This document shows positions 1 through 43,746 of a DNA stretch of 64,000 bases, piece by piece. Numbering within the stretch: the stretch's first letter is position 1; the number at the start of each line of letters is the position of its first letter. Location: assembly GCA_035578905.1 (NCBI GenBank), contig JAQJVL010002688.1, forward strand, positions 1-64,000. Direction: 5' to 3'. Source of the stretch: Stictocephala bisonia. Its lineage: Eukaryota; Arthropoda; Insecta; Hemiptera; Membracidae. The notes beneath the pieces are model-generated. The model saw nothing but the letters and a program-made list of their open reading frames with translations. It was not told the DNA's origin and made no database searches. Both the position numbers and the translations under genes were made by a program.

Positions 1-524
1 AAAATATGTGGTTCGGCTTGGGCTCTCGGAAAAATGGGCAAGCCTAAAATTAGTAAATGAATCGCCGGATATTGTTTCCTAATTAGTCTCAATAATGAAA
101 TGTACTGATCTTTAATACGTGAAAATGGCAAACTGGAGAAAATGTCATTAGTCCCCACCCAAATAATTAAGGGTTGTTGCGGGTGTAACAAATGATTTCT
201 TTTTAAGATATTTTTCAAATCGTGAATTGTGGCACCCGGAATAGCCACTCTGTACGTCATATTGATGGGGTGTTGGTTCCGTTGCATGTAGCATTTTAAA
301 CGTTTGGTGAGTGAGTCACCAATAATTTGGACACCGCGGTCGCTGTTCATTTCTCCTTTTAATTTAGAATAATTCCGTAGGGTAGGGGAGAATTGTAGGT
401 CTATTTGTGTAGCTAGACAACTGACCCACTACAGGTAGGTCAGCCAGGAAAAATCCTATTATTTACAAAATACCCTAAAAGAATTCCCATTAAAAATTAA
501 CTGTTGCCTTATTCAATTAAATTA

Positions 525-4249: not shown

Positions 4250-5708
4250 TGACAGTTTTACATCAAAACATTCAGCACTTACCCACTAGATTAGACTTGT
4301 TGAATATGAACTTATCAGACTTCAGTCCAAGCATAGTAGCTCTTCCCGAACATAAAAATGAAAATGAATGAACTTGAAAACCTAAACATAAAAAATTACA
4401 AAACTCGTAATTATTTTTGTCGAAAGTCTACAACAGGTGGGGAACCTTAATCCTGGTACACACTGACATTACAGCAAAAAAAAAAAAAAAACTGTCAACA
4501 ACTTACATTGATTCACTGTTCAAAGAAAAATAATTTGAATGTTGTGTGGCAAACATTGAATGTAAGTGCTGCATTAAAAGTTTTATTCTGGCTTATATTT
4601 GTCGATCTTTCCAGTTTAAATTCAAGGAAGCTTTTCTTGACAAACTTAACTGTAAGTTAGGAATCTTAACTAAAAAAAATTAAAATTTTTACTGTGTGGC
4701 GATATCAATATTGATATATTGAAACAAACAAAAACTCAAACCGCTTTCATGAGTATTCTACAAAGTCACAACTTGTATTATTTAGTAGATTTTCTTACAA
4801 GAGTAACAGAATCATGCAAAAGTGTTATTAACAACATAATTACAAATTTCAACAGGAAATTCTTAAAAATATTATAGCTGGTAACAGAGATTTATAATCA
4901 TGACGCCCAACTTTTAGAACTATTACATTTTAAAACATCCTAACTGACAAATAATACCACTGAATTCTGCAGATCATTTACAAAAATCAAAGAAGATTTA
5001 TTTCTTAAACAAATGGCTAGTGAGTCTTGGACTGATGTTACTATGCACCTGTTGATAAAAAGTATGTTTTCCATGCAATATTTACATATTACTTTAATAA
5101 TGTTTTTTTTTTTCAAAAACGAAGGAAAAGAAATTAAAAATAAATGTGATTGGATAACATATGACCTAAAATATGATCAAAAATAAATTGTTGAACTAAG
5201 CAAATTATTTCATAAATTCAAAATATGTTAAGATTTCTTTGAAGAATAAAAATCTTTTGAAAGGGAAAATCAAATGGCAAAACAAAAACACTATGACAAC
5301 AAATTGATAATTCCACAAATATTGCAAAAACCACTAGGAAACTAATCAATGATGAAAGAGGTAAAAATAATTCTTAATTTTATATTTCTTTAGTAAAAGA
5401 GAGCAGACTTTTCACTAACCCTGGAGATATCTCAAAAATGTGCATTGATTATTTTTCAAGTGTAATTAAAAAAGAAGTTTTGCCTAAAAATCAAACCACT
5501 CATTTTTCAAATACATATCAACCTAATCAAGTTTTAGTCAGTATTTTTTATTCCAAGAAGTGACAGACAAAGAGGTTTTGTTAGCAACTGACTCATTCAA
5601 AAACAAGAATTTTACTGGGTTTGATGACATTCCTGCAACAATATTAAAGAAATACAAGGTTTATCTAAATAAACCACTAACTCATTTAATAAACTCTTTC
5701 TTTATTAT
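4250..5708 (+). pseudogene. degenerate LINE: endonuclease and RT N-terminus (5' of Copia)
   Basis: Plus-strand remnant of a LINE related to the one at 38080-42224. At 4258-4365 it reads LHQNIQHLPTRLDLL and then IVALPEHK, the N-terminal AP-endonuclease block (compare HQNIRGL and VVLSEHK in ORF2 at 39122). At 5560-5705 it reads a VTDKEVLLATDSF block, then FTGFDDIPATILKKYK and NKPLTHLINS, matching the EVLKIIDSL, SSGFDEVPISLIK and KPISHLINS blocks of the intact copy. Many stops and frameshifts lie between. The match breaks off at 5708, exactly where the Copia LTR begins, and resumes after 9982. Confidence 0.75.
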
Positions 5709-5870
5709 TGAATTTAAACTAACATGCTGTATTTAACCATATGATAATGTTTATCATGTGTGTTTTTTCAATTATGTTGACTTAATTTTTCTTAAGAAAA
5801 TAAGTGTTACCTTTTTACAATGTTTATTAAAAGTCTAACAACTTTATTATAATTTCTATATGTTTTATTT
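5709..5870 (+). repeat. Copia 5' LTR
   Basis: Begins TGAATTTAAACT and ends TATATGTTTTATTT, directly before the primer binding site. It pairs with 9821-9982 over its full length with a single clear mismatch. At 162 bp it is short for a copia-type LTR. The outer edges are uncertain by 1-3 bases because both ends are T/A-rich. Confidence 0.9.
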
Positions 5871-5885
5871 GGTTATGGGCCCAGA
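5871..5885 (+). promoter_or_regulatory. primer binding site, initiator-tRNA-Met half-tRNA type
   Basis: GGTTATGGGCCCAG lies immediately after the 5' LTR. Drosophila copia uses the same type of sequence, complementary to an internal (anticodon-region) segment of initiator tRNA-Met rather than its 3' end. The match and its position directly next to the LTR support minus-strand priming by a half-tRNA. Confidence 0.85.
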
Positions 5886-5908
5886 TAAACTTTGTAAATA
5901 TATCTAAA

Positions 5909-8900
5909 ATGGATATGAAAGTACAGATAGCAAAGCTTGATGGAGCTCAGTCTTGGCGTAGATGGAAAAGGCAAATGGAATTGATGTTGAAGCATCATGG
6001 GGTCCTGGATATTGCAAAAGGCCAGAGAACTATGCCTGGAATAATCCTGGACGAGCTTGCTGATAAAGATACTGAAGAAAAAGGACTAATTGAGAAAACA
6101 CACAGAGAGGAGGTAAGAGCATATGAGAAGGATGATTCTCTAGCCCAGGTCCTGATGGTAAGTGCTGTAGATGATGCTCATGTTGAATTAACAGCAACTT
6201 GTAACTCAGCTATGGAAATTTGGCAGAAATTGTTAAGTATTTATGAACAGTCTTCTAGCCAACGGTTAGATAGGGTTTTAGAACAGTTTTTCTCTGCCAA
6301 AAAGACTGATGATGAGGAGTTAGTTCAGTACATTTCTCGTTTGCAATTAACATTTAGGGAAGTAAATGAGGAATTGCAAAAGCACAATGCTAATATTTTG
6401 CCTGATATTGTACTTATGTCCAGAATTATGAGCACATTGCCGAGCGAATTCTTTGAATTTAAAAGCGTATGGGAAAGCATTCCTGTTGTGGACAGAAGTG
6501 TCGATCTTTTGATTGAGCGGGTCAGGCTCATTGAGTCAAGATTACCTTCTAAGAATGCAACAAGTGGAGGGCATGCGTTACAGATAAACAAGAAAATATC
6601 AATGACATCAACTGGTGTTAGAAATGTTAATGAGAAACCTCTTATCAGTAGTTCAAAGGTAAAATGTTTCATTTGTAAAGGACCGCATTTTGCAAACAAG
6701 TGTCCTCAAAACTCGAGTAAGCTAAAAACTGATAAAAAGGGTGGGAGCTCTTCTAAGGAGAACCAGAAGAAATCAAGTCCGTTTTTATGTTTTGTAGCTG
6801 ACGGTCAGAATTATGATACTTTCATCGCTGACTCTGGTGCATCGCAACACATGTGCTTTAAACGAGAATATTTTGATACTTACCAGAATTATTCTAAGCC
6901 TGTTTCAGTTACTGTAGCTAATGGAGATGCGATCTATGCTGAAGGTGAAGGCGACATCCGTGTTCTTGTACAAATCGGCAAGAAGCAAATTATCCGAGTG
7001 CTGGGGGGAGTATGGTTTGTATCCGAACTTGGAAGAAATCTTCTTTCTGTGTCTAAGTTAGTTGAAAAGAACTACATTTTTAAGGCTAGTAAAAATAAAT
7101 GTGTTTTTATGAGGGATAATAAGCCACATTTATTTGGACATAATGTCAATGGTCTGTATGAATTGGAAATGTCGGTTATACAGAACAAATCTTCTGTACA
7201 ACTTGCAAATAGTACTAATAAGACGTTGCAAGAGTGGCATGAGAGTTTAGCTCATCAAAATAAGGCTTATGTTTATAAGTTTCTGCGTGCTCGTGACATT
7301 CCAGTAGAAAACGATATTTTCTGTGAGGGATGTGTATTAGGTAAACAACACCGGGAAACTTATCACACACGGACTGTAAAACCTGAGAAGCCTGGGGAGA
7401 TTATAAGTGGTGACTTATGTGGACCAATGGAAAATTTATCTCTGGGTGGTAGTCGATATTGTCTAGTGTTGAAGGATTATTACACTAAATTTCGACGTGT
7501 TTTCTTTTTGAAGGAAAAGACAGAGGTGCCTGATTGTTTGTCAATATTCTTCAGTGAGTGTAAGACTGTGGGACATGTTGTTAAAACTTTTATGAGTGAT
7601 GGCGGGACGGAATTCTGCAATGCCAAAGTGAAAAAGCTACTTTCTGATCGTGGCATTTCTATGAGAACAAGCATGCCTTACACACCTGAACAAATGGGTT
7701 CTGTGGAACGTGAGATGCGTACCTTGGTGGAAGCAGCACGTAGCATGTTACATGCTAAGAAACTGTCCTTGTGTTTGTGGGCTGAGGCTATGAACACTGC
7801 CTGTCATGTTATCAACCGCACTGGTCCGTCTGTTGGTGGTAAAACTCCTTATGAATTGTGGTTTCAAAAGGGTCCTGCTCCAATTGAACACTTTCGTCAG
7901 TTTGGTGCTGATTGCTACGTCCACGTGCCAAAACAAAAGCAAAGGAAATGGTCAGCTAAATCAGTTCCTGGAATATTAGTTGGGTATTGTGACGAGCAAG
8001 ATGGCTATAGAGTCTATGTTGCACCAAAGATTATGACAAGCAAAGATGTTGTTTTTAGGCCAATTGCTTCAGATAATATGAAGAGTAATGCATCTGTCAA
8101 CATTCAATCTCCTCTCCAAACCCAGGGCAATGAAGAAGATGTTGAAGTGTTTAGAGAATCTCAAGACCAAGACGTAGATATTAGAAATGTGGAAGTGGAA
8201 GATGACAAGTCTGCTGAAAATGATGAAGGAGGAGTCGTAAATGAAGAAGATGACACCCAACCTCAACGTCAGCGACGCCCTCCTGCGTATCTACAAGACT
8301 ATGTCTTACTTGCCGAGGCTGGTCCTACCTATGAGGAAGCAGTAAATAGTCCTGATTGGTGGCATTGGCAATCTGCTATGAACGACGAGATGGCGTCAAT
8401 GAATGAAAATGAAGTTTTTGAGTTAGTTCCTCATCCAAATAATAAGAGGATTATCGGTCTGAAGTGGGTTCTTACTATGAAACAGAATCCTGAGCGCTAT
8501 AAGGCAAGGTTAGTAGCAAAAGGATATGCTCAAAAGTATGGCGAAGATTACAACGAAACCTTTAGCCCTGTAGCAAGATGGGATACAATAAGATGTCTTT
8601 TGAATGTGGCTGTTCAAGAGGACCTTCACTTGAAACAATTTGATGTGAAGACTGCATTCCTTTATTCAAAACTGAATGAAGACATTTATACTTGGCAACC
8701 TGAAGGTTATAATGACAAGAGTGGGAGAGTTTGGAAACTCAAACGCAGTTTGTATGGCCTAAAACAAAGTCCAAGATGTTGGAGTAAACTTCTTAAGGAA
8801 AGTATGCTTAAGAAAGGTTTTAGCCAAAGTACTGCTGACCCATGTTTGTATATTCATAACAAGAATGGTACAAAAATGTATATAGTAATTTTTGTGGATG

Positions 8901-9823
8901 ATGGTCTGATTGCTGGCTCAAATAAACAAGAGGTATCTGATTTTATTGCGGAATTAGAACATGAATTCAAGCTGAAAGTTACTGATCCTGAAACTTACCT
9001 CGGGATGGAAATTCACAGAGCTGAGGGCAGAATTTCTTTGAGTCAGAAGTTGTACATCAAGAGTGTACTAGAGAGGTTCAGGATGGCAGACTGTAATCCT
9101 GTTGGCACTCCTTTATGTTTAAAGCATGAAGAATCATCGGAGGAAGACAAACCTTTACCTAAAAGTGTTCCTTTCCGAGAAGCTGTGGGCAGTCTGATGT
9201 ACATCACCAATACAAGACCAGACATAAGCTGTGCAGTAAATATGGTTGCACAGAAGTTGAATTCTCCTTCTATGAAAGCATGGAGTGATGTGAAGAGGAT
9301 TTTCCGCTATCTTAAAGGAACAATGGACTACAAGTTGACTTATTCAAAAGGTCAGAATATTTTACATTGCTATAGTGATGCAGACTTTGCAAATGATGAA
9401 ACAAGAAAATCACGCACTGGGTATCTGTGTATGTTTGCTGGGGGCATCGTTAGTTGGTCTTCTGTTAAGCAACATTGTGTTACTCTGTCAACAACAGAAG
9501 CATAATTTGTTGCTGCAAGTGAGGCTACTAAACAGATTGTATGGCTGCAAAGTATGTTGAATGAGATGTATGGACAAAAGATCAACGCTGTTCTTTTTGT
9601 GGACAATGCTGGGGCCGTTCGACTAGCAAGAAATGTGGAGTTCCATAAACGCTCAAAACACATCCATGTGAGGTACCAGTATGTTCGTGAACAATTCCTT
9701 GCAGGAACATTTGATGTGCGACATGTTGCTGGACATGAGCAGCTTGCTGATTTCCTTACGAAGGGTATGTCGGTTACAAGACTGAAGAACCTTCTGGAGC
9801 ACGTTAGTTTGAGGGCATATTGA
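5909..9823 (+). pseudogene. Copia gag-pol polyprotein (one in-frame nonsense codon)
   Basis: A single frame of about 1303 codons starts at ATG 5909, 38 bp after the LTR. Order: copia-type gag (residues about 1-230); zinc knuckle CFICKGPHFANKC at 253-265, with C-X2-C-X3-H-X4-C spacing, one residue shorter than the usual X4; aspartic protease DSGA at 308-311; HHCC zinc domain (WHESLAH, then CEGC); integrase core with D502, D564 and E600 (D-61-D-35-E); reverse transcriptase with FVDD at 995-998 (usual YVDD); RNase H. At 9503-9505 TAA interrupts the conserved LSTTEA-FVAASEATKQ block, where related elements have Glu (GAA). Reading resumes in the same frame through VDNAGAVRLA and HVAGHEQLADFLTKGM. 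The true stop, TGA at 9821-9823, is the first three bases of the 3' LTR. Apart from the one stop the protein looks intact. Confidence 0.95.
9808..9820 (+). promoter_or_regulatory. putative polypurine tract
   Basis: TTTGAGGGCATAT directly precedes the 3' LTR, and its GAGGG core is the only purine run there. The tract is weak for a plus-strand primer. Its position next to the LTR is the main support. Confidence 0.5.
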
Positions 9824-9982
9824 ATTTAAACTAACATGCTGTATTTAACCATATGATAATGTTTATCATGTGTGTTTTTTCAATTATGTTGACTTAATTT
9901 TTCTTCAGAAAATAAGTGTTACCTTTTTACAATGTTTATTAAAAGTCTAACAACTTTATTATAATTTCTATATGTTTTATTT
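9821..9982 (+). repeat. Copia 3' LTR
   Basis: Direct repeat of 5709-5870. The pol stop codon overlaps its first three bases. Downstream of 9982 the interrupted LINE resumes. Confidence 0.9.
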
Positions 9983-10655
9983 TTTATGAGTAGAATATTT
10001 CCTAACAATTTAAATCTAGCAGATTAAGCCCATTTTAAAGAAAGGCAATAATGAATATGATGTGTCCAGTTACATACCACCCTGTATCTCTTTTGCCAAT
10101 ATTTTCTGAAATCTATGAAAAATTTTTTACAATCAGCTAACCAATTACCTAGAAACTAATAGATGAATTGAAAGAGCAGCATGGCTTCCGCCCAGGCAAA
10201 TAAATTATTACAGCAACATAAGAATTCACTGAACAAATAATTGATAATGTAGATAAAAAAATTGAAAATTGGTGGAATATTCTTGGATTTAACCAGCACA
10301 TTTGACAGTGTCAAACCCAATACTGTTAGATATGTTAAAACATCTAGGAATACAAAATAGATCTTTAATTTGGTTCGAATATTATTTAAGTAATCGAATG
10401 CAGTTTGTTGAAATAACATGTCAAAACAATTTTAAAGTTAAAAAAGTTTTATCATCTTAAAGAAAGTTGATAAAACTGAAAGTGTCCCTCAGGGATTCAT
10501 AGTGTGTTCGTTAATCTTTTCGTGTTACTTAAAAGGATTACCTGGAGTAATAACTGGAAAAAACGCCAGTGTTTGCTTATATGCAGATGATACTAACATT
10601 TTAACAACAGCAGCGTCTCAGGATGAGCTGGAGATATCATCTTTTATTAATTTGT
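9983..10655 (+). pseudogene. degenerate LINE RT (3' of Copia)
   Basis: Continuation of the LINE at 4250-5708. It keeps pieces of RT in different frames: HGFRPGK near 10180, a degraded LDLTSTFDSVKP around 10280, SNRMQFVEI near 10395, VPQGFIV at about 10485-10505, and the catalytic CLYADDTNIL at about 10577-10605. These correspond to HGFRKGK, MDLSKAFDS, SNRKQFVEI, GVPQGSIL and LYADDTNI of the intact copy at 40878-41215. It stops abruptly at about 10655 against unrelated, GC-richer sequence. Confidence 0.75.
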
Positions 10656-11230
10656 CAGCCCTCAGTGCAACCATGCCAACCAGCCCTCGATACAGTAGGA
10701 CTGGACTATGTTTTCATCCGTACAGCCCAGACCGGAGAACCCTGGCAAGCTCCTCCTGTAACTATCAGGAAACAGGACCCTCCACGGTGTGATGCAGAGC
10801 TGATCCAGATCCCTGAAAGTCAACGAGCAAACAAAGAGGACCAGGCAAGATCTTTCCTCAGGGTTGAGGCCGTCAAAGATAACAGAGACTGTCTCCGCCT
10901 CAGACATAGTCAGCCACAGCACACAACTCGCCTCTCGGATAGCCCCCATGAAAGCAGATAGATCCTCGCCATACCGCTGAGGTCGATAGAATCAATTAAA
11001 GGAGGATAGTTCCTGCTAGGTTGCCCTCGTAACCTAGCAGTAACAATAAATTCGAGTGCCTCCCTATGAAAATTGTTTAGTCCCCTGTCAGGCCAGAGCA
11101 GAAGAGAGCCTTTCAGAAATGCTGCCACAACGAAAGAAAATATCAGGTGAAGTACCTCAAATCCCAAAGTTTAAGTAATCGACCAAAGAAAGTCAGAAGG
11201 GTCTCAGGATCCACTTCTTTTAACAAACCC
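10656..11230 (-). pseudogene. gag-like remnant of an LTR retrotransposon
   Basis: GC-richer than its surroundings. On minus, 10662-10949 reads MGAIREASCVLWLTMSEAE, then VIFDGLNPEERSCLVLF and a TFRDLDQLC block. 10910-11167 reads a block with ARLRGQPSRNYPPL upstream in another frame. The sequence F-x-x-AIREA...MSEAE...V-I-FDGLNPEER...F-x-DLDQLC resembles retrotransposon gag proteins in which a capsid-like helix bundle is followed by this block. That assignment is from memory of the pattern, and the element class (Gypsy or BEL) is not settled. At least one frameshift is present; no protease or RT is next to it. Confidence 0.45.
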
Positions 11231-17650: not shown

Positions 17651-17695
17651 CCACTACTACAGTACGTGTATGGGAGGGAGGGTAGGGAAGATTAG
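17628..17695 (+). repeat. 36-bp-family minisatellite, short
   Basis: Two degenerate units with GTTTATGGGAGGACAGGTGG and ACAGTACGTGTATGGGAGGG, related to the array at 15137. Confidence 0.65.
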
Positions 17696-18497
17696 ATGAT
17701 ATCTGTACTAATTTCTGTAGCTTACGAAAAAGTAAATCATGAAGGTACTCATATCAAGCTCTTCTCTTCCTAATACATCTTAAAGTATTTAGTCAGAACC
17801 GTGTCTTCCTTTGAAATTTTATGAGGTTACCAATCTGGTGGTATTTTGCCCCTACTGCATCCCATTGGTGGATAAATTAGTTGCTTTAAACTCTTGACCT
17901 TGAAGTCCTCTGTTAGTCTCTTGAAGGCCTCATAATCAAATTAGTATGTTTGAGGATGTACTGAGGCTTAGTGACCAAACTGTAAAAACTATATCCCTAT
18001 TTGGCTTGTTGGAAGGCAGGTTACTGATTCACAAAGTTAGGGATTGGTTTGCCAAAACATTTTTTTTATCTACGGCAACCCCTGCAGACATGTTTTTTCA
18101 CATTGATGTCTATGGATATATATAGTGAGAAAATACTGTGAAGGGTTTATTGGAGTATTTATCAATAATATCTGACATGTTGGCCTTCATGACTTAAATA
18201 TTATCCATTTTTTCGTAATTAGGTATCTATATTGTGTCAGGCAAGAAAGTGTCTGAAGATAAGATTAAAGCCACTGCAGCTTCTTGTTTTGGTAGGGCCC
18301 TTGAGGAAATATACAGCCAGCTGGAGATACTCTTACATACAATCAGTTTTTCTTCTTGGTTCAAATGAAGTCCATTTCTCCTGTAATGCTTGTTGTAGTT
18401 AAAGAGATGGTTGAATTTTAAGAACTTAATCTAATCCTATAGATAATGATAGCAGCCAGGAGTTAAAACGTTCAACCTCAAAGAACTTCTTTCTCTT

Positions 18498-18713
18498 TTA
18501 TGGTTGCTGGTATAGGTACAGCAGTTCAGTTAAAACAATTTTTGCCATGATGATCTTTGTGAGTGTTTCAGTCATACGAATGATACTTTTTAAAAGCTCA
18601 GTATCTCTTGTCTTTATATATACTACCAATTCTAACTTCCTTGGAGTTGCAAAAACATACTCACTACATTCGAATGGCTTTTTTCTAGTATGAGTCCTCA
18701 TGTCATATACCAA
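18498..18713 (-). pseudogene. degenerate C2H2 finger and tail of zinc-finger locus A
   Basis: The minus frame reads MRTHTRKKPFECSEYVFATP and then LELVVYIKTRD. This keeps the HT-x-x-KPF linker, the first Cys and the spacing of a C2H2 finger. The second Cys and the zinc-binding His pair are lost (ECSEY for CxxC, YIKTRD for HIKTH). The rest (SIIRMTETLTKIIMAKIVL) is not a finger. Copy B has the same region at 29012-29290. In copy A it is separated from the main array by the LINE at 18724-20003. Confidence 0.6.
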
Positions 18714-18723
18714 AGAGGTATTT

Positions 18724-19761
18724 GATGACCTTTTATTAAAACTAAATTACTATGGATTCAGTGGTCCTTCTTTAGAGTTCTTCCAATCATACCTTAAAAA
18801 TCGCCGGCAAGTTGTGTGTGTTGATGGTGCGTGCTCACAGGAGATTCAAAATAAGTATGGAGTGCCACAAGGCTCAATACTTGGTCCATTATTGTTTTTG
18901 ATCTGTATCAATGACCTCCCATTTTCAATTAATGCTTCCACAATACTTTATGCAGACGACACAACCTTTTTAAATGTCAATACTAATTTAGATGAACTTC
19001 AACTTTTGGTAAATAACACCTTAGAAGAAGCCAGTGCCTGGTTTAAAGCCAATGGTTTTCTGTTAAATGAAAATAAAACACAGTCAATTCTTTTCAGTTT
19101 GAGACCCACTAACACGCATAATTTGGAAGATGAATCACTTCCTTTTGTTAAACTTTTGGGGATATACATTGATAATAACTTGAATTGGGGGAAACATATT
19201 GATTATATATCCACCAAACTCTCTAGGGTCTTATACCTTCTCAAGCAACTAAAACTTCATGTACAAAAGAATTATGTTAGGACAGCGTACTTTGCATATT
19301 TTCAGTCTGTAATTAAATATGGTCTTGTCCTTTGGGGAAACTGCTGTCGAGTTGATGAAATCCTTTTACTCCAAAAAAAAGCTGTTAGAATAATGGCTGA
19401 TCTGGGTCATCTCGATCACTGTAAACCAATATTTAAAGAACTAGAAATACAGACTGTAGTAAATTTATACATATTCGACTTAGCTGTTTATGTCATCAAA
19501 GATGTAAATAAATTAACATTTAATTATAATATTCATAACTACAATACTCGCAACAAGAACAATGTAGTGATAGGTCACAATAGGTTGAGCAAAACTCAGA
19601 ATAGTCATAGTGTGTTATCCCTAAAGGTGTACAATACCCTGAGCCATCTTATGAAAGTATATCCAGAAAAGCAGTTTAAAACGAAATTGTATACCTGGCT
19701 CTTGAATAATCCATTTTATAGTTTTAATGATTTTCTCTCAATGGATTTAATAGTGTTTTGA
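18724..19761 (+). CDS. LINE reverse transcriptase fragment, uninterrupted frame
   Basis: About 345 residues of non-LTR reverse transcriptase in one unbroken frame, from FDDLLLKLNYYGFSG to the stop at 19761. Motifs in order: SYLKNRRQVV (RT block 3), YGVPQGSILGPLLFLICINDLP (block 4, positions about 18858-18920), LYADDTTFL (catalytic aspartates, about 18949), LLGIYIDNNLNWGKHID, an RTAYFAYFQSVIKYGLVLWG block, LLQKKAVRIMADLG and NIHNYNTRNKNN. These belong to the CR1/Jockey group of LINEs. The N-terminal endonuclease and first RT blocks are lost by 5' truncation, so there is no native start; the in-frame Met at 18700 lies in the flanking sequence. The lack of stops indicates a young copy. Confidence 0.9.
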   Translation, partial: DDLLLKLNYYGFSGPSLEFFQSYLKNRRQVVCVDGACSQEIQNKYGVPQGSILGPLLFLICINDLPFSINASTILYADDTTFLNVNTNLDELQLLVNNTLEEASAWFKANGFLLNENKTQSILFSLRPTNTHNLEDESLPFVKLLGIYIDNNLNWGKHIDYISTKLSRVLYLLKQLKLHVQKNYVRTAYFAYFQSVIKYGLVLWGNCCRVDEILLLQKKAVRIMADLGHLDHCKPIFKELEIQTVVNLYIFDLAVYVIKDVNKLTFNYNIHNYNTRNKNNVVIGHNRLSKTQNSHSVLSLKVYNTLSHLMKVYPEKQFKTKLYTWLLNNPFYSFNDFLSMDLIVF

Positions 19762-20418: not shown

Positions 20419-21525
20419 TTAATTGGATCCAATGGAAGTAGTATATAGACACGGAGAACATTTAAATGGCTTGTCTCCAGTGTGTGTCCTCAAATGTATT
20501 TTTAAATTGGATCCATGGGAGGTTGTATATAGACACTGAGAACATTTAAATGGCTTCTCTCCAGTGTGTGTCCTCATATGTATTTTTAAATTGGACCCTT
20601 GGGAAGTTGTATATAGACACTGGGAACATTTAAAAGGCTTCTCTCCAGTATGTTTCCTCATATGTATTTTCAAATGGGACCCTTGGGAAGTTGTATATAG
20701 ACACTGAGAACATTTAAATGGCTTCTCTCCAGTATGTGTCCTCATATGTGCTACTAAGCCGCTCTTCTTTGTGGCTGTGTAAACACACTGAGTACATTTA
20801 AATGGCTTCTCTCCAGTATGTGTCTTCATATGTACTACTAAGTATCTCTTGAGTGAGGTTGCGTAAACACACTGAGTACATTTAAATGGCTTCTTTACTG
20901 TGTGTGTCTTCATATGTACTACTAAGTATCTCTTAAGTGTGGCTGCGTAAACACACTGAGTACATTTAAATAGCTTCTTACTGTGTACATTCTTTACTGT
21001 GTGTGTCTTCATATGTGCTACTAAGTATCTCTTGTGTGTGGCTGCGTAAACACACTGAGAACATTTAAATGGCTTCTCTCCAGTGTGTGTCCTTATATGT
21101 ACTACCAACCTAGACTTCTCTGAAGTTGTATAAAGACACCGAGAACATTTAAATGGCTTGTCTCCAGTGTGTGTCCTCATATGTATCTTTAAATTGGACC
21201 CTTGGGAAGTTGTATATAGACACTGAGAACATTTAAATGGCTTCTCTCCAGTATGTGTCCTCATATGTACTACCAAACTGGACTTCTTTGAAGTTGTATA
21301 AAGACACTGAGAACATTTAAATGGCTTCTCTCCAGTATGTGTCCTCATATGTATTTTCAAATGAGACCCTTGGGAAGTTGTATAAAGACACTGAGAACAT
21401 TTAAATGGCTTCTCTCCAGTATGTGTCCTCATATGTGCTACTAAGCCGCTCTTCTTTGTGGCTGTGTAAACACACTGAGTACATTTAAATGGCTTCTCTC
21501 CTGTGTGTGCACTCATACTGTACAT
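20419..21525 (-). CDS. C2H2 zinc-finger array protein (locus A)
   Basis: 368 residues made of twelve complete C2H2 fingers plus a partial thirteenth, joined by TGEKPFKC linkers with a 28-residue period. Each finger fits C-X2-C-X12-H-X3-H, for example [21 protein letters not shown]. Such arrays bind DNA sequence-specifically in the nucleus, and target choice depends on the helix residues (QGSHLKI, KKSSLVV, EKSRLVV, HKRYLVA, LKRYLVV and others). Fingers 1-2 are repeated as fingers 9-10, showing internal expansion. One linker is aberrant (HTVKNVHSKKLF between fingers 6 and 7). The start at 21525 is the first Met (MYSMSAHTGEKPF). No N-terminal effector domain is visible, so an upstream exon may be missing. 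The frame ends inside finger 13 and decayed fingers follow. It could be a functional gene or a decaying duplicate. Confidence 0.8.
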   Translation of the reverse strand: MYSMSAHTGEKPFKCTQCVYTATKKSGLVAHMRTHTGEKPFKCSQCLYTTSQGSHLKIHMRTHTGEKPFKCSQCLYTTSKKSSLVVHMRTHTGEKPFKCSQCLYTTSQGSNLKIHMRTHTGDKPFKCSRCLYTTSEKSRLVVHIRTHTGEKPFKCSQCVYAATHKRYLVAHMKTHTVKNVHSKKLFKCTQCVYAATLKRYLVVHMKTHTVKKPFKCTQCVYATSLKRYLVVHMKTHTGEKPFKCTQCVYTATKKSGLVAHMRTHTGEKPFKCSQCLYTTSQGSHLKIHMRKHTGEKPFKCSQCLYTTSQGSNLKIHMRTHTGEKPFKCSQCLYTTSHGSNLKIHLRTHTGDKPFKCSPCLYTTSIGSN

Positions 21526-22039
21526 TGTGGTTTTTTTATCTTTTAAGTATTCTGAAGTTAGGCCAGTGTTCTCAAGACAGATTACCTTAAACAGAATAAT
21601 TTACTTTATAAAGGAAGTACACTTTGCTAATATAAAAGAATCTAGAGCTTGTAGTCATGATTTTTAAAGACTGCATTTACAATATTACTATATTTTGAGA
21701 CATTGCAGGCAAATTCTGGTCAATACTACTAAGGATAATCATGATACTGTCTCAGCCACAGAGACCAGTAGTCAGGCATTGTTTACAGGTTAGAAAATGT
21801 TTTAATGCTTATTCCCTGGTTAAATATTTGCTGGAAAATAGTAGATCCTTATTCATGCATGTTATATGTCAGTCAACAAAGATTTTACAACACAGACCCG
21901 ATATAGTAATCAACTCATTTTCATACATTAAAATTGAGAGAAGAGTTCATCTATTATGAGAAAACATACTATAACTAAATCTAAACTCACATTGAATTAC
22001 AGATTTTAATATATCCTAAGAATGAGCTACAGCAACCAA

Positions 22040-22571: not shown

Positions 22572-23287
22572 TTAAGGACACGTCTCATTAGGCTTCCTGT
22601 TTCCCCAACAAAAAATTCTTCCGTTTAATTACTAATAGTTTAATAAATTATGGTAAACAAATGGAAAGGCAACGTCAAATTGTCTGACTGACTTCGCAAT
22701 GTTATCAAGAGTGATGGCCCATGTATAGCACTTTACTTTTTGCTCAACTGTAAATGCATTTTCCAATTAAAAGCGCTTGAGGGTACGTCTCATTGGCTTC
22801 CTGTTTCCAACAAAATATTCTTCAACAAAGTAAATCATGAAGGTACTCATATCAAGCTCTTCTCTTCCAATTACATCTTAAAGTCTTTTAGTCAGAACCG
22901 TACGAAAGTCCGTCTCCCACACCATATCTTAGTTTGTCATCCAGCACAGCAACAATTATCTTGGCTCTTGTCTTCCTTAGAAATGTTATGAGTTTACCAA
23001 TAAAAACATCTGGTGGTATTTTGTCCCTACTGCATCCCATTGGTGGATAAATTAGTTGCTTTAAACTCTTGACCTTGAAGTCCTCTGTTAGTCTATTGAA
23101 GGCCTCATAATCAAATTAGTATGTTTGAGGATGTACTGAGGCTTAGTGACCAAGCTGTAAAAACTATATCCCTCTTTGGCTTGTTGGAAAGCAGGGTACT
23201 GATTCACAAAGTTAGGGATTGGTTTGGCAAAACATTTTTTTTTTTAATACTGCAACCCCTGCAGACATGTTTTTTTACTTTGATGTC

Positions 23288-29329: not shown

Positions 29330-30125
29330 ACACTGAATACACTTTAATAAGCTTCTCTCCAGTGCCTGTCCTCACATGTATTTTCAAATTGAACTTCTAT
29401 GAAGTTATGTACAAGACATTGAGTACATTTAAATGGCTTCTCTCCAGTATGTATCCTCATGTGTATTTTTTAAAAAAACTCATGACGTTGTATACAGACA
29501 ATAAGAACATTTAAATGGCTTCTCTCCAGTATGTGTCCTTATATGTACTACCAATCTGGACTTCTGTGAAGTTGTATAAAGACACTGAGAACATTTAAAT
29601 GGCTTGTCTCTAGTGTGTGTCCTTACATGTGTTTTTAAACTGGACGCGTGGGCAGTTGTATATAGACACTGAGAACATTAAAATGGCTTGTCTCCAGTGT
29701 GTGTCCTCATATGTATCTTTAAATTGGACCCTTGGGAAGTTGTATATAGACACTGAGAACACTTAAATGGCTTCTCTCCAGTATGTGTCCTCATATGTAC
29801 TACCAAACTGGACTTCTTTGAAGTTGTATAAAGACACTGAGAACATTTAAATGGCTTCTCTCCAGTATGTGTCCTCATATGTATTTTCAAATGGGACCCT
29901 TGGGAAGTTGTATAAAGACACTGAGAACATTTAAATGGCTTCTCTCCAGTATGTGTCCTCATATGTGCTACTAAGCCGCTCTTCTTTGTGGCTGTGTAAA
30001 CACACTGAGTACATTTAAATGGCTTTTTTCCAGTGTGTGTCCTCATATGTGCTACTAAGCCGCTCTTCTTTGTGGCTGCGTAAACACACTGAGTACATTT
30101 AAATGGCTTCTCTCCTGTGTGTCCT
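29330..30125 (-). pseudogene. C2H2 zinc-finger array, locus B (frameshifted)
   Basis: Shorter array than in A. The longest open part (29678-30046) has four fingers nearly identical to fingers 1-4 of locus A ([64 protein letters not shown]). It ends at KPF-stop, where CCATTTTAATG has one T more than CCATTTAAATG of A. Upstream, a further finger with TGKKPF linker is open, but the start region lacks two bases relative to A (MRTHRREAI instead of SAHTGEKPF). Downstream fingers continue in shifted frames to about 29340. At least two frame breaks make it a pseudogene. Confidence 0.8.
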
Positions 30126-36345: not shown

Positions 36346-37170
36346 TTATGTCTTAGCGGCGGTAACAGGCAGGTCCTCCATTCGAGTGGCACTCCCCCGG
36401 CGACCGTCTCCGTCGATCCATATCACCCGACCGTCCACAGTCCATGTGTTGCAGACTCCGAAGATGGTTGAAGCTCTCCGGAACACCTCCAGACCCAGCT
36501 TTGTAAGATCCTCACTGATGACCATCCCGGATCCTTTCAAGTTCTTCTTTTCGGCAAACACCCTTCGCCGATCTCTGTAGCTAACGAAGCGTACTATGAT
36601 CGGCCGGTGTTGCTTGGAGCCATCTGGGCGGGGCTGCAGCACAGGTCCGAGGCGGTGGGAGCGACAGATGGCGGCTACCGGAAGCTCCACTCCAAGCTGG
36701 TCTTGGCAGAGGCTGACCATCAGCTGATCTGTGTCCTCCTCTGGCTTCTCAGGGATTCCAAAGACCCGAACACAGTTCCTACGTTGGTACTGCTGAAGGT
36801 CATCCGTCTTCTGCAACAGTTGTTTGTCCAGACTTTGCACCATCTCAGTTAGCTTCGATACTTGTCCTTTCAAAGAATTAATTTCCTCGTTAAGGGGTCT
36901 TAGGCGTCAAAAACTGCTTTATGTACTGTTTCTTCAATATTTTTGGCCAACTTAATAACTAGGTTGTCAAAAACGTCACACTGTCTTTGGTAAGAATATT
37001 TTTCAAACACTTCTCGATGAAAGCAGGGGCGACCGCAGGTGGCATTGTTGGGCAGTCCTTATCAGAGACACTTGAGAAATGCGATAACGGTCACTCGGAT
37101 TTCTGCTTATCAGCAAGCTTGCCTCTCGTCCTACCAGCCGGTGGCGAATTAAACATGAAATTGCACTAAC
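36346..37170 (-). pseudogene. LINE ORF1 protein (coiled coil plus RRM-like)
   Basis: On minus, MFNSPPAGRTRGKLADKQ (about 37157) begins an ORF1-like protein. After frame breaks it continues FDNLVIKLAKNIEETVHKA, EEINSLKGQVSKLTEMVQSL (coiled coil), LQQYQRRNCVRVFGIPE, then IVRFVSYRDRRRVFAEKKNL and GMVISEDLTKLGLEVFRR, a non-canonical RRM and C-terminal domain typical of nucleic-acid chaperones encoded by insect LINE ORF1s. The unbroken part is 36346-36873 (175 codons); the N-terminal 100 codons contain at least two frame breaks. No ORF2 follows. The 5' leader was cut by insertion of the hAT-type element at 37238 and resumes at 43755-44150. Confidence 0.75.
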
Positions 37171-37229
37171 TAAAATGCAATTTTTACCATGAGGTGAAAA
37201 GTAATTAGCAAACAAAATGTACAAGTTTA

Positions 37230-37237
37230 TTAAAAAT
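37230..37237. repeat. target-site duplication of hAT-type element, left
   Basis: TTAAAAAT, identical to 43747-43754. Confidence 0.95.
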
Positions 37238-38216
37238 TAGGGGTGTGCGAGTAGTGATTTTTGAGTTCGAGTCGAGTAGTTAGTATTTTTTTGAGTATCG
37301 AGTATTTTTCGAGCGAGTATTTACAGAAGGATTTCCTGTTCACCCAAGACAACTGTAAAAGGCAGACACCATCCTAAGCCTATGTTAAGTTTTGCCAGAT
37401 TCGTAAATATATACATCTAAACTGAACACAATAATTTTTATTTGTTGTTTGTAACTGTAACATTTGATAAATAAAACTTGTTATTTCCTGCTTTCCTACA
37501 TTTTTATGTGGCATTGTTTTGTTTAACCTTTTTCCTTTTTTCAGAACTAATATTATGTAAGAAATTAAGAAAGTATATTATTAATTGAAACAACATGGAT
37601 TATAAAGATTTAATCTGTTCACTCATATCTCAGATCAGCGTTCTATGCAAGCCAATTATACTGTTTTACAGCCGGCCGATGTGTTTATCTGGTGGTTCAG
37701 TTCGAAGTGTACCGCGAAAACGTACAGTAGCGAAGCTTGTTGGCAAAAGCTGCATTCAACCAAACTGATGCTAAAATTCAGGCATTATCGACAAATGCGG
37801 TCATTTGCTTTGAGAATTGCCTCCTCTCAACAAAAAATTGATTGTGTACACGCCAAGAAGAGTGGATCTGTATTCTGTGGATGTGTAATTCAACAATAAC
37901 AAGATTACAACTAACCAGAAATAAGCTCTGAATTACAGTATATAATCAAATTTGAAAATCTGGATGACAAAGACTGTGGTTCAATCAATTGATAATAATA
38001 ACTAAGCAGGTTTACTAAAAATAAATTTTAAAGTGGCTTAGGATGAATTAGTTTTTAAATTATGATCGGTAATGAAATATGTAAATTATAGACTTTGTAA
38101 GAGAAATAACTTGTCAAAAACAACCAAGCATAGTAACAAACTCTAGAAATCATGGAGATTTATCACCTAACTCTAACAACTCTATTAAAAGTACAGTCAA
38201 TATAATAAATTTACAT

Positions 38217-39059
38217 ATGGCAAAAGTGATTAAATACCATAGAAACAATGCAAGTGTAGGATTTGCACACAGCATTTCTAGCGATTTTCAAGATTCTCGC
38301 CACATGACAGCTGGAGTCGCTGTGGTCTTCAAAAATGAATTCGGAAAACCCATCACTGCACAACGTCTTACCAGCCATCTGGCTTTACAGAACACAGAAA
38401 ATGGGTCTGCAGTATACAGTTTAATCACCAAGGAAAAATATTTTGGCAAGCCAACCATATCAGACTATAATGCCGCGTTCAATGACTTAACTGAAGACTT
38501 TAAAATCAGGGGCCTCAAACATCTCATTTGTTCTCCTATTGGATGTGTTAGGGATAAAGTGGACTTGACTCATTTTGTAAAAAACATTTTGAAGTTTCAA
38601 CGTTGCACCAATGCCACAGTCACTATTGTATCCTATTTTCAAAAGTCCGTCCGAAGCCTACGTAATGGATTATCACACAGAGAATTTATAAACAGAATAA
38701 AGAATCTAATAAATGACGAAACAGAAAAATCAACTCCAACAGCATCCTGTGAGTCATCACTGTCCATGCATCTTGATGAGACTGTTAACATGTCTTCAAC
38801 CTCTCACGAGACTTCGACAATAGAGGTTTCCCCATCACCTGAGATATCTGCTGGTTGTGAGAGTGTTGTAATAGTGCCGGGTGACCTCACATACTGTGAG
38901 GCCCTAAAGCAGAGCAATTGTGGTAAAAATACAAGTGAAATTCTTCATGTGAATAATTTAGATAGTGATGAAAGAAATCGTACCGTCAATGACTCTCTAA
39001 GTATAAGTAATGGTTTAATTAACTCAATGGAAGTCAACTATTTTTTAGAGCAAAAGTAA
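38217..39059 (+). CDS. LINE ORF1 protein with macro domain (TARG1/OARD1-like)
   Basis: 280 residues. Residues about 14-135 read as a macro domain: VGFAHSISSDF at 14-24 and the MTAGVAVVFKNEFG loop at 30-43 (family pattern S-L-A-H-C-x-S-x-D...M-x-A-G-I-A-x-x-F-K-x-x-FG). Then AVYSLITKEKYFGKPT at 65-80 (family Y-x-L-x-T-K-x-x-x-x-KPTY) and HLICSPIGCVRDKVD at 102-116 (family PRIGCGLD). The macro fold binds ADP-ribose. In human TARG1 (OARD1) catalysis depends on a Lys in the TK motif and an Asp in GCGLD; both positions are kept here (K72/K74 and D113). Residues 170-280 are a Ser/Thr/Glu-rich tail without a domain. No coiled coil, RRM or CCHC of usual ORF1 proteins is visible. The start is the first ATG in the element. 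The frame is intact. Confidence 0.85.
   Translation: MAKVIKYHRNNASVGFAHSISSDFQDSRHMTAGVAVVFKNEFGKPITAQRLTSHLALQNTENGSAVYSLITKEKYFGKPTISDYNAAFNDLTEDFKIRGLKHLICSPIGCVRDKVDLTHFVKNILKFQRCTNATVTIVSYFQKSVRSLRNGLSHREFINRIKNLINDETEKSTPTASCESSLSMHLDETVNMSSTSHETSTIEVSPSPEISAGCESVVIVPGDLTYCEALKQSNCGKNTSEILHVNNLDSDERNRTVNDSLSISNGLINSMEVNYFLEQK
39041..39047 (+). promoter_or_regulatory. putative -1 ribosomal frameshift site
   Basis: T TTT TTA in the ORF1 phase (codons TAT TTT TTA GAG), four codons before the ORF1 stop. A -1 slip here enters the ORF2 frame at AGA (39047-39049), which is open from there into the endonuclease. Heptamers of this form are classical X XXY YYZ slippery sites. No downstream pseudoknot was established by eye. 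Confidence 0.55.
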
Positions 39060-42017
39060 AGCCAACCTCACAACGTAAGCTCCCCACACACAACAGTAGT
39101 TTAAACTGTAGCGGCGTAACCGTGTTTCATCAAAATATAAGGGGGCTTGAGTCATCAGTTGAGTCCTTAGAAATTACTCTAGTTGAATTAAATCCTGAAA
39201 TCGTAGTACTCTCAGAACACAAAATGGTTCAACCAACATTAGAACGGATAAATATTTTAGACTACACGTTAATTTCCAGTTTTGCCAGACAAACTTCCCG
39301 AGGAGGTGGGGTCATTATTTTAGCTAAGCCGCACTTGAGTTTTAAAAAGATCAATCTAAAAGAAATTGAGCAACTAAACAGTGAAACTGTTTTTGAATGT
39401 TGCACTGTTGAATTTAAGAATATTCTCCCACTTAAAAATTCAAATTTATTAATAGCTGGGCTTTATAGAAATCCAATTAGATCAAATGACACAGCATCGA
39501 CTGACAGACTAAGTGAAATGTTAGAAATTTTGACAAGAAAATTTGATAATATTGTGGTCATTGGTGATATAAATATTGACTTGACAGAACACAGCAGGAG
39601 GGCTAGAAACCTCAATAACGTTCTGGTAGCCAATGGCATGACATTTTTGGTAGATTTCCCAACCAGAATTACAGAAACATCAGAAAGTTGTATAGATAAT
39701 ATTTTTACAAATATTGATAAAAATCTGCTTAGTGTAACAGGAATAAATACTCAACTATCCGATCATGATGCCCAATTACTAGTCTTAAAATCCTTAAATA
39801 AAGAAACAAAAAACAGAAAGTCCACAGTGATATCAGAATTTTCTAGAAAATTCTCTGAAACAAACATGTCCAAATTTTCTAAAGCATTACAATCAGAGTC
39901 ATGGCATAATGTATATATGGCAGAACCTTATTGTAAATATGATGTTTTTTATGATACATTTATGTTTTATTTTAATTTATTCTTTCCTAGAAAATTAAAT
40001 AGAAGTTTTAAAAATAAAAAGCCATGGATCACTAAAGACCTTAAATCAGATAAAGTAGAAATTATTGAACTGAGTAAGGTAGCTAGAGAAACTCAAAATA
40101 ACTCCCTGTTTTTAAAGGTGAAAAAAATGAATAAATCATTTAGAAAAAAAATGTATGAGCAGAAAAAGCGACATTTTTCAAAAACTCTTAATTTATCTTC
40201 AAATGTTAACAAAACCACATGGAAAATAATTAACAATGAGGTAGGGAAAAATACTTCAAGTGAAAAAAACATTACTGTAAACATTCAGGGTAGATCTGTT
40301 CATGATCCTGCTGTTGTGTGTGAGAGTTTTAATAATTATTTCCTGAATTATGTTGAAAGCAACATTATACCTAAACTAGATAGGAATAAGACTATGACTA
40401 ATGAAATCAATCAAGTCAGTACTACCAACCTATGTATGAATGATAATTATAATGTTTTTAAGTGTAAGCCAATAGATGAGAGGGAAGTATTAAAAATAAT
40501 TGATAGTTTAAAGAATAAAAAAAGTTCAGGATTTGATGAAGTACCGATAAGCTTAATAAAAAGTTGTAAATTTCAGTTGGTAAAACCAATTTCTCATTTG
40601 ATCAATTCATCCTTCATTTCAGGCTTGTTTCCAAGCAAACTCAAAATTGCCAAAGTAATACCGTTTTTTAAAAAAGGAGAAAAAACTGATATTCAAAATT
40701 ATAGACCAATATCCATGCTTCCCACTATCTCTAAAATTTTTGAAAGAGCCTTTTGTGAGCAACTAGTCAATTTCTTAGAAAAAAAATAATTTAATTCGTG
40801 ACTGTCAACATGGTTTTCGTAAGGGAAAGTCTGTCATTACGGCAGCAACGGAATTCATTGAATCTGTAATTAATTCATTGGATGAGAACAGAAAGGTAAT
40901 GGGAATATTAATGGATCTGAGCAAAGCTTTTGATTCTATTCCTCATTCATCTCTTTTATTTAAATTATATAATTTAGGGCTAAGGGGTCAATCATATGAT
41001 TGGATTGAATCTTACTTAAGTAATCGAAAGCAATTTGTCGAAATATCTCATCAAGATGGTAAACATTTCAGAAATCATTACAAATCTTCAGTGAAAACAA
41101 TTAAATATGGTGTCCCACAGGGCTCCATTTTAGGTCCCTTTTTATTTGTTTGCTTTTTAAATGATTTTCCAAAACTGTGCTCTTCGAGTAAAATTTGTTT
41201 GTATGCTGATGATACAAATATAAATATTAATGCTCCATCTTGGGAAGAAATTGAAAGTAAGCTGGATGAGAACTTAACTCATCTCTGTCAGTATTTTAAT
41301 CAAAATGGTTTGCTTTTAAATTTAGAAAAAACCAACTGTATAGCTTATCAAACAAAGAGTTGGAAAAATAAACCTTTTAATTATACTGGTAAATTTGAAA
41401 TTTCTCAGGTTAAAGAGATAAACTTTCTAGGGTTAACATGTGACATGAATTTAGACTGGGATCTTCATGTTATGAAAGTTTTGTCCAAAGTATCATCCGG
41501 TATATTTGCAATAAGAAAATTAAGATATCTTTGTGACATAAACACTTTAAGAATGGTTTATTTTGCATACATACATTCCACCATTTATTTTGGTATATCC
41601 TTGTACGGTGCAACAAATTTAAAAAATCTTGAATCAATCTTAATAATGCAAAAGAAGGCAATAAGAATCATATTAAATTTGAAACCTCAAGTTTCAGTTA
41701 AAGAAAAATTTGCCGAACTACAAATTCTCACTGTCTATGGAATGTACATTTACGAAGTAGTACTATCCATTAGGTCAAAAATCGGACAGCAGAAACTTAA
41801 TGGCGATAATCATCATTACTATACTAGACAGCGGAACGAATTAACCATTCCCTCTCATCGATTGGCACTATTTTGTAAAAAACCACAGTATGCAGGAATA
41901 ATATTTACTAGTAAATTACCCGAAAATATCAAATCAGAAACATCTTTATCAAAATTTAAGAACAAACTTAAAATATATTTAATAAATAAAACTCTGTATT
42001 CACTTGATGAACTGTAA
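39047..42017 (+). pseudogene. LINE ORF2: AP endonuclease and reverse transcriptase (one frameshift)
   Basis: Numbered from GTG 39122, endonuclease motifs are HQNIRGL (N5), VVLSEHK (E32), LYRNPIR (114-120), VVIGDINID (D149, N151), IDNIFTNID and LSDHDA (D214, H215), a complete AP-endonuclease set. RT follows: SSGFDEVPISLIK, then NYRPISMLP to 40789. The frame breaks in an A8 run at 40779-40786 and resumes as DCQHGFRKGKSVITAA, ILMDLSKAFDS, YGVPQGSILGPFLF and LYADDTNI (catalytic Asp pair at about 41208-41213), continuing to the stop at 42017. One homopolymer indel is the only lesion. No ATG occurs in this frame before M35, which lies after two catalytic residues, so translation must start through frameshifting, reinitiation or a non-AUG codon. 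Confidence 0.92.
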
Positions 42018-43746
42018 CAGTAACACAAATGTAAATTACAAATTTCATATTTTATTCACTTCTATAAGGATATTATTTTAATCATAATTTTGCAAAGACG
42101 TGTATATGGTATGTATTAAGTACTATTTTAATTTCATTGACCTAGGTTAATACTTGACACCATTCAATGTATTCTTGTAATACTAATGAATAAAGAAGAT
42201 ATAAATAAAAATAAATAAATAAATGTGCAACTTGAAACTACTTCGATACATGAGGCTACATTGAACAACAGATAAATAATCATGTCATAACGAGAAATTC
42301 ATTAAAACCTGGTGTAATCGAATGAAAACCATGGACGTAGTCGGCTAATATAATAGGTCTACCCGATATTGGCGACGAGATGCAGTCTGAAATATCAGCT
42401 AAGTGCCAACTAGTGATACAGTGAAGATTATGGGCAGCTAAACGATAAACTTATGAATATAAAACGAGACGTTTGATAAGGCTTCGGTTCAATAAAAATT
42501 ATTTTCCGAATCTCTAAATTCGTCGTATTTTGTTTAGAAAAGGTCTTCCAACATGTTTCTCCTTCACTTTGGTTGATTCGTGATTGTTTTACAGTTTACA
42601 TCGACGTCAATGTGAACAGGGGACCGTTCAATGAATTTACGAATCAAAATTATCGTACTTTACCACCTTTTACACTCCAACTGTGTTATTGTCTAACATA
42701 GTCAGAATACTGTTCAACAATTTGACAGGAAACATATCGTATGCGCAAATATTAAACATGGTTTTGGCGATCTAAGGCGTTTTCGGAATAATAATTAATA
42801 GACGTTCGCCATGGATACATATATATGTTTTATTTAACGGAAAATAAATCAATAATGTTGTGTCACACGCTGCTAGAACGCCATTACCATGATTTATATG
42901 ATATGATACGGTATTTTCTTACGTCAAATCAATAGACGATTCCCTGCTCAGATTAAAAAAACAAAATAAACCTCAATCGACTCGCAAGAAATATACGATA
43001 ATTTCATTTCCGAAAAGGAGCTGAACGGTTCCTTGCACGTACGTATACTACAACCGAGATGAACTTTCACCTAGAAAAGATAGGAAGTTCGATTCTTGGG
43101 ATGTTAAGTGATCTGTTCTCGGGACCCTTTTGATTGAACGGTATTATTGATATGAACGAAAATATGCTGCACGCATATTTGTATCCACGCTGCACAGACC
43201 ATTAGATTTGTATTGGTAACATGTCTTTTTGAGCATCTTGAACCGGATCTCTCGTCCCCTTTCTTGGGTCATAAAGATACTAACCAGCACTTTGTTTTAT
43301 TCACGCTATTTTAGGTTACAAGTGACTAGTAGACTCGACAACCAACATGTGTGATAGCTACTATTTAAAGTGATCGCTACCTTCCCAGCTCTGTTGATCA
43401 CTTTGAACTGAACTAGTTCAAATCATACTGAACGAACTCGTTCACTACGTTGACTAGTTCATTTGACTGTCGTCGTGTACTACCTATTCTTAGGTGTATT
43501 GTTCAGTTCATAATTACGCGTACCAAACTGATAACGTATGATTAAGGGTGAAATAAAACACAAACATTTTTAATTGATAGTTTATAAAACTGTTTACTCT
43601 TAAAACTAAATTAAGATGTAAATCTGATATTTCGTGAAATACAACTACTCGATCGAACTTCGAGTAGTTTTAGGAGCTTCGAGCCGAGTTCGAGTAGTAA
43701 AATACTCGATCAAATACTCGAAGTTTCGAGTACTCGCACACCCCTA

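Follow-up and report, generated by a model that had tools for sequence, protein, structure and literature searches.

Can an insect long interspersed nuclear element (LINE) encode an enzyme that takes ADP-ribose off its targets? This question is raised by an open reading frame (ORF) at positions 38217-39059 of a 64,000-nucleotide stretch of Stictocephala bisonia DNA (Hemiptera, Membracidae; assembly GCA_035578905.1, contig JAQJVL010002688.1, positions 1 to 64,000 of the forward strand), hereafter called the window. A sequence-only reading of the window had proposed that this frame is the first ORF (ORF1) of a LINE and encodes a macro domain. We find that the 280-residue frame makes up the last, C-terminal third of an ORF1 that was longer, that the element is an apurinic-endonuclease (APE)-type LINE with a new type of ORF1, and, with near certainty, that this ORF1 carries a TARG1-type macro domain. 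The parts of the element are:

38085-42222, + strand: LINE copy, 5'-truncated (4,138 bp), with the C-terminal third of ORF1, a broken ORF2 and an A-rich 3' tail
38085-39059, + strand: ORF1 remnant, 324 codons from stop to stop, starting at the end of the SGNH hydrolase region
38193-38726, + strand: TARG1-type macro domain (model ma0f5048e8f42), with the Lys72 codon at 38430-38432 and the Asp113 codon at 38553-38555
38877-38915, + strand: short motif PGDLTYCEALKQS (PGDLTYxEALKQS) in the otherwise variable ORF1 tail, partly common to many homologues (by eye)
39023-40789, + strand: first part of ORF2, 588 codons from stop to stop, APE-type endonuclease and start of the reverse transcriptase (RT); Exo_endo_phos E 3e-4, below the curated Pfam cut-off
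40779-42017, + strand: second part of ORF2 in a shifted frame, RT; Pfam RVT_1 E 7e-29

A TARG1-like macro domain with conserved catalytic residues

A Pfam scan of the 280-residue ORF called no macro domain. The closest PDB sequence was human TARG1/OARD1 (C6orf130), matched with an E-value of 5e-6 by the single sequence and of 1e-12 by a 26-row profile. Comparison of the structural model showed a macro fold nearest to TARG1; alphavirus macro domains were among the next matches, TARG1 being clearly nearer than the viral domains. The assignment to the TARG1 class is thus borne out by sequence and by fold.

Lys72, in the motif LITK, aligns with the LITK lysine of TARG1, which by residue count on the human protein we take to be K84, and Asp113 (GCVRD) aligns with the GCGLD aspartate, presumably D125, the catalytic aspartate of loop 2. 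K84 of TARG1 and K80 of DarG are catalytic lysines (PMC8501950; here and below a cited paper stands for the part of its text available to us). Among 66 public homologues, counted with redundancy kept and gaps apart, lysine was found in 61 of the 63 with a residue at the first position (K 61, N 1, M 1, gap 3) and aspartate in 57 of the 59 at the second (D 57, S 1, L 1, gap 7). The Lys/Asp pair that had been likened to that of TARG1 is therefore aligned in the window ORF and kept across its homologues. Alignments comprised 23 of 32 proteins (A1), 26 rows made of the window piece and 25 of 31 homologues (A2), and 19 rows (A3). The glycine that follows GC in loop 2 of TARG1 is absent, V or I standing in its place in 58 of the 59 homologues with a residue and C in one, and for this reason we speak of a TARG1-like domain, not of a TARG1 orthologue. 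The two further differ in that the present domain is LINE-encoded within a long ORF1, reads GCVRD for GCGLD and has a first loop four residues longer. We consider it likely that the domain is enzymatically active in copies with an open ORF1.

The window copy is 5'-truncated

Eight close copies were compared over the stretch 36900-42600. Homology started at 38085 in six of them and at 38099 and 38186 in the other two, and upstream of 38085 none of the eight gave a match. The window copy is therefore 5'-truncated, and what had been taken for a leader in front of the ORF is flanking DNA. Its identity to two of these copies, L031 and L032, was 98.8% and 98.9%, from 38085 to 42225/42222. The 280-residue frame (38217-39056, stop to 39059) is contained in the 324-codon frame, ORF2 starts directly after ORF1, and the two ORF2 frames join near 40,785; L031 and L032 likewise have ORF2 split in two frames. 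With its 5' end missing and its ORF2 frameshifted, the element is not the almost intact LINE that was first described. The frame is open and, by its linkage to ORF2, belongs to the element, as the sequence-only reading had held; it is not a complete ORF1 behind a leader.

Dispersed copies that share their 3' end and are truncated to varying extents at the 5' end, a hallmark of APE-type LINEs, were observed (3' ends compared for the window copy, L031 and L032), and ORF2 combines an APE-type endonuclease with an RT after ORF1, the endonuclease Pfam scores lying below the curated cut-offs. No target-site duplication was found at the window copy, only an A/T-rich 11-mer common to the 3' tail and a site 69 bp upstream of the 5' junction. 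In the short motif of the ORF1 tail, P221 is almost invariant.

Longer relatives encode a multi-domain ORF1 protein

The longer frames show what truncation removed. In L031, an 832-codon frame encodes a Ulp1/C48 peptidase (E 4e-7, above the cut-off), an SGNH hydrolase (E 9e-5, below it) and the macro domain; the SGNH motifs ADSQG, GTND and HGMHLN were recognized by eye, a pattern search catching HGMHLN only. L032 retains the C-terminal piece of a PWWP domain ahead of the Ulp1 region, and the 988-residue ORF1 frame of L035 reads PWWP-Ulp1-SGNH-macro (SGNH below the cut-off). ORF1 as a plain macro-domain protein must therefore be given up. The Ulp1/C48 domain is absent from the window copy; the SGNH hydrolase that marks type IV ORF1s, present in longer relatives mostly below the Pfam cut-off, was lost from it by truncation.

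All 28 public homologues of at least 500 residues were scanned, and domains above the Pfam cut-off were C48 in 16, PWWP in 7, MBD in 3 and PHD in 1, with a sub-threshold FLYWCH in one; 11 of the 28 have PWWP, MBD or PHD as N-terminal partners. Both the HW and the (D/E)CG motif of C48 peptidases were found by pattern in 12 of the 16 C48-positive proteins. The PDB sequence nearest to residues 70-229 of homologue P0035 is SENP8 (E 6e-21); to the Ulp1 region of P0047, a type III effector, NopD and SENP8 are about equally near. The ORF1 protein of the longer copies and relatives is thus predicted to be a multi-enzyme protein, with PWWP, MBD or PHD in some and a Ulp1/SENP8-like peptidase in many, followed by the SGNH hydrolase and the TARG1-like macro domain.

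Homologue P0046 has the order MBD-macro-Ulp1-SGNH, versus Ulp1-SGNH-macro in the other homologues with these domains. The SGNH part of ORF1 in L030 (109-2379, + strand) scores best with Pfam OSK, the Oskar SGNH domain (E 9e-4, below the cut-off). The 1247-codon ORF1 frame of L034 (3211-6951, - strand) opens with a stretch that Pfam matches weakly to aspartyl proteases (E 0.02-0.05); by eye this start runs into a Gypsy-like RT start, and is probably a neighbouring long-terminal-repeat element in the same frame.

Copies, linkage to ORF2 and selection

At least 138 matches to the ORF, scored among 2421 candidates, were found in the 1.68-Gb assembly. Identity is 95-100% for nine copies, counting the one in the window, and 41-87% for the remaining matches. 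The 30 best loci, selected for the similarity of their macro domain (29 distinct copies, L009 being the same as L015), all have an ORF2-like endonuclease on the same strand, 300-503 bp past the macro domain, so that the proposed linkage of ORF1 and ORF2 holds in other copies. In L033, a single open frame of 1418 codons encodes an SGNH-like region (recognized by BLAST to other copies, not by Pfam), the macro domain, the endonuclease and the RT. Two more macro copies, both decayed, lie in the window itself:

17682-18397, - strand: second macro copy, decayed, preceded by the end of an SGNH region
22864-23280, - strand: decayed third macro copy (iE 4e-19)

The 4.2 kb that precede a decayed ORF2 relative (4252-5706, pieces 27-46% identical) contain no detectable macro domain, which counts against a constant link; this relative may be 5'-truncated or have had another ORF1. 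It is the first piece of a decayed ORF2 related to the window copy's lineage (4252-10663, + strand; second piece 10069-10663) split by an apparent Copia element recognized by eye, with an open 1224-codon frame at 5831-9505.

The ratio of non-synonymous to synonymous substitutions (dN/dS) was computed by the Nei-Gojobori method on the macro domain of 30 copies, with the duplicates L002, L004, L015 and L019 and the two-frame L008 left out; 272 of the 435 pairs were saturated, and pairs are not independent. Median dN/dS was 0.177 at dS 0.6-1 (3 pairs), 0.143 at dS 1-2 (27 pairs) and 0.112 at finite dS above 2 (40 pairs), and among close copies 0.43 at dS 0.03-0.1 (53 pairs) and 0.54 at dS below 0.03 (40 pairs). 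Low values between subfamilies and higher ones among close copies fit a history in which purifying selection acts between bursts and copies decay once inserted.

Distribution and probable exchange of ORF1

A search with the widest profile found 58 homologous proteins among the 7989 candidates sharing most words. The host species is known for 21 of them: Homalodisca vitripennis (19), Graphocephala atropunctata (1) and Macrosteles quadrilineatus (1), all of the family Cicadellidae (leafhoppers). No relative turned up when viral contig and genome contig collections were scanned with the macro alignment. We assign the element to a multi-copy APE-type LINE family that is also present in leafhoppers.

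The same genome contains a TARG1-like open frame, L039, that matches TARG1 in the PDB with an E-value of 2.6e-28 and is probably the host's own TARG1-like gene. A fresh capture of this gene was considered as the origin of the LINE domain and rejected: the two are only 28% identical over 104 residues, and L039 is far closer to human TARG1. The LINE macro domain is a divergent TARG1 relative.

Trees were built from 15 representatives of the 30 copies; a long-branch warning applies to both, above all for L033 and L034, and well-supported inner branches were 5 of 12 in the macro tree and 6 of 12 in the endonuclease tree. The endonuclease tree groups the window copy with L034, L030 and L013, apart from L035, L014 and L033 (split support 100/100). 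RT pieces are 47-57% identical within the L033/L035/L014 group, 38-56% within the window group and 28-41% across. ORF1 groups otherwise: the window copy is 59% (macro), 60% (SGNH) and 54% (Ulp1) identical to L035, versus 49%, 38% and 29% to L034. Imposed on the macro tree, the ORF2 split was rejected (p-AU 0.009, under the same long-branch warning). Because the ORF1 and ORF2 groupings conflict and the ORF2 split is rejected on the macro tree, the ORF1 module was most likely exchanged between deep LINE lineages. Such exchange has been described for other ORF1 types (PMC4120745). An RT fragment at 18694-19758 (+ strand) is 54% identical to the ORF2 of L033, so both ORF2 lineages are present in the window.

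Comparison with known LINEs

Known LINE ORF1 domains are the coiled coil, RRM, CCHC, PHD and esterase (PMC4120745), the esterase being known in CR1, L2 and other LINEs (PMC3905857, PMC4120745). Type IV (esterase) ORF1s, such as that of zebrafish ZfL2-1, share the SGNH hydrolase, generally placed there after a coiled coil (PMC3905857); the macro and Ulp1 domains found here are without mention in the available parts of PMC4120745 and PMC3905857. Esterase ORF1s are found only in the vertebrate L2 and CR1 groups according to PMC4120745, and in chordates, cnidarians and sponges according to PMC3905857, whereas the host here is an insect. NeSL and one Utopia family are known to carry an N-terminal Ulp1-like cysteine protease; these LINEs have a restriction-like endonuclease and generally a single protein, unlike the APE-type endonuclease and separate ORF1 of the present family (PMC4640811). 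The PHD-bearing ORF1s of CR1 and L2 are alike in having a chromatin-reader domain and a reticulate ORF1 evolution (PMC4120745), but here PWWP, MBD or PHD is joined with SGNH and macro, often also with Ulp1.

The words 'macro', 'ulp1' and 'protease' do not occur in the available part of a survey of 448 Jockey-superfamily elements (PMC4120745), nor do 'macro', 'esterase' or 'ORF1' in the text of PMC4640811; 'macro' and 'protease' appear in PMC3905857 only in unrelated senses. Among the matches listed in text searches of open-licence papers, no title or abstract opening reports a macro-domain LINE; the sequence-only reading, too, knew of no established element of this kind.

Other features of the window

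Tandem C2H2-type zinc-finger frames, with repeats very alike by eye, lie at 20419-21600 and 29678-30124 (both - strand). Just upstream of the macro LINE, a frame at 36346-36906 (- strand) resembles, by eye, the coiled-coil plus RRM type of ORF1 of another LINE. A weak SGNH-like stretch (best E 1e-4) stands at the left end of the window (33-374, - strand).

A proposed eraser of host marks

All together, the locus is best explained, with a probability of about 0.62, as the C-terminal part of a multi-enzyme LINE ORF1 in which an active macro domain and the Ulp1 domain together remove host marks. What suggests erasure is that ORF1 combines a TARG1-like domain with a Ulp1 peptidase and, in certain members, also with chromatin readers. 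The macro domain would work as a mono-ADP-ribosyl hydrolase alongside the Ulp1 domain, and the marks removed would be host ADP-ribose and SUMO or NEDD8, on proteins or DNA ends encountered by the LINE ribonucleoprotein; the likeliest targets would be factors of silencing or of the damage response, at chromatin and where the endonuclease nicks the DNA. TARG1 works via Lys84 and cleans ADP-ribosylated DNA (PMC8501950), the substrates of TARG1 and its kin include protein as well as the ends of DNA and RNA (PMC11088682), and in mammals SIRT6 mono-ADP-ribosylates KAP1, silencing L1 (PMC4695847). As to the main role of the macro domain, we place it only tentatively against chromatin silencing, and a main role at the integration nick is more doubtful. 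Equally tentative is the wider idea that ORF1 is a dedicated anti-silencing machine, in which PWWP, MBD and PHD readers would target chromatin, Ulp1 would strip SUMO/NEDD8, SGNH acyl groups and the TARG1-like domain ADP-ribose, so that together they would undo repression or PARP marks where reverse transcription takes place, the module spreading between LINE lineages by ORF1 exchange.

Several points weigh against erasure by an active domain. The precedent of SIRT6 and KAP1 comes from mammals. None of the three close copies that were read to the end (the window copy, L031 and L032) has an unbroken ORF2. The close-copy dN/dS values of 0.43-0.54 are those expected of decaying insertions and in themselves no sign of constraint; many of the moderate-dS pairs stem from one divergence (L010-L013 versus L014 and L016), and the ratio is that of the macro domain alone. 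Finally, since loop 2 reads GCVRD for GCGLD, substrate binding may differ.

This departure of loop 2 from TARG1 (V or I for G) also leaves room for the macro domain as a reader, which would bind ADP-ribosylated proteins or DNA, for example PARP-marked nicks, and tether the LINE ribonucleoprotein without hydrolysis. Its N-terminal partners in 11 of the 28 long homologues are reader-type domains as well, but the catalytic Lys and Asp, needless for a pure binder, are among the most conserved residues, and we hold this explanation to be unlikely. Viral macro domains are thought to counter PARP-type defence. A comparable main role in the cytoplasm, against a PARP-type defence directed at LINE RNA or ribonucleoprotein, seems somewhat less probable still: the structural matches next in line include alphavirus macro domains, and TARG1-type enzymes take ADP-ribose off RNA ends (PMC11088682), but TARG1 is clearly closer than the viral domains, and the PWWP, MBD and PHD partners point to chromatin. 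Many copies, the window's too, are truncated or frameshifted, as they would be if the domain were a passenger without a present role; this is improbable given the low dN/dS between subfamilies, the long open ORF1 frames kept by several of them and the conserved catalytic residues. That the domain adjoins a LINE by chance, or was captured just once from host TARG1 next to one, for which the probable host frame L039 might have spoken, is refuted by the ORF2 linkage in 30 of 30 loci; the distance of the LINE domain from L039 also speaks against it.

If the macro domain is indeed an active hydrolase that acts with Ulp1 on host marks, it would be the first ADP-ribosyl hydrolase encoded by a transposon; we know of no other. 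A TARG1-like hydrolase, often beside a SENP8-like peptidase, suggests that ADP-ribosylation and SUMO/NEDD8 truly hinder the spread of LINEs in insects, and the macro/Ulp1 ORF1 would be a natural multi-domain probe for testing such barriers. Moreover, the same ORF1 swapped between two ORF2 lineages would make a clear case of modular LINE evolution.
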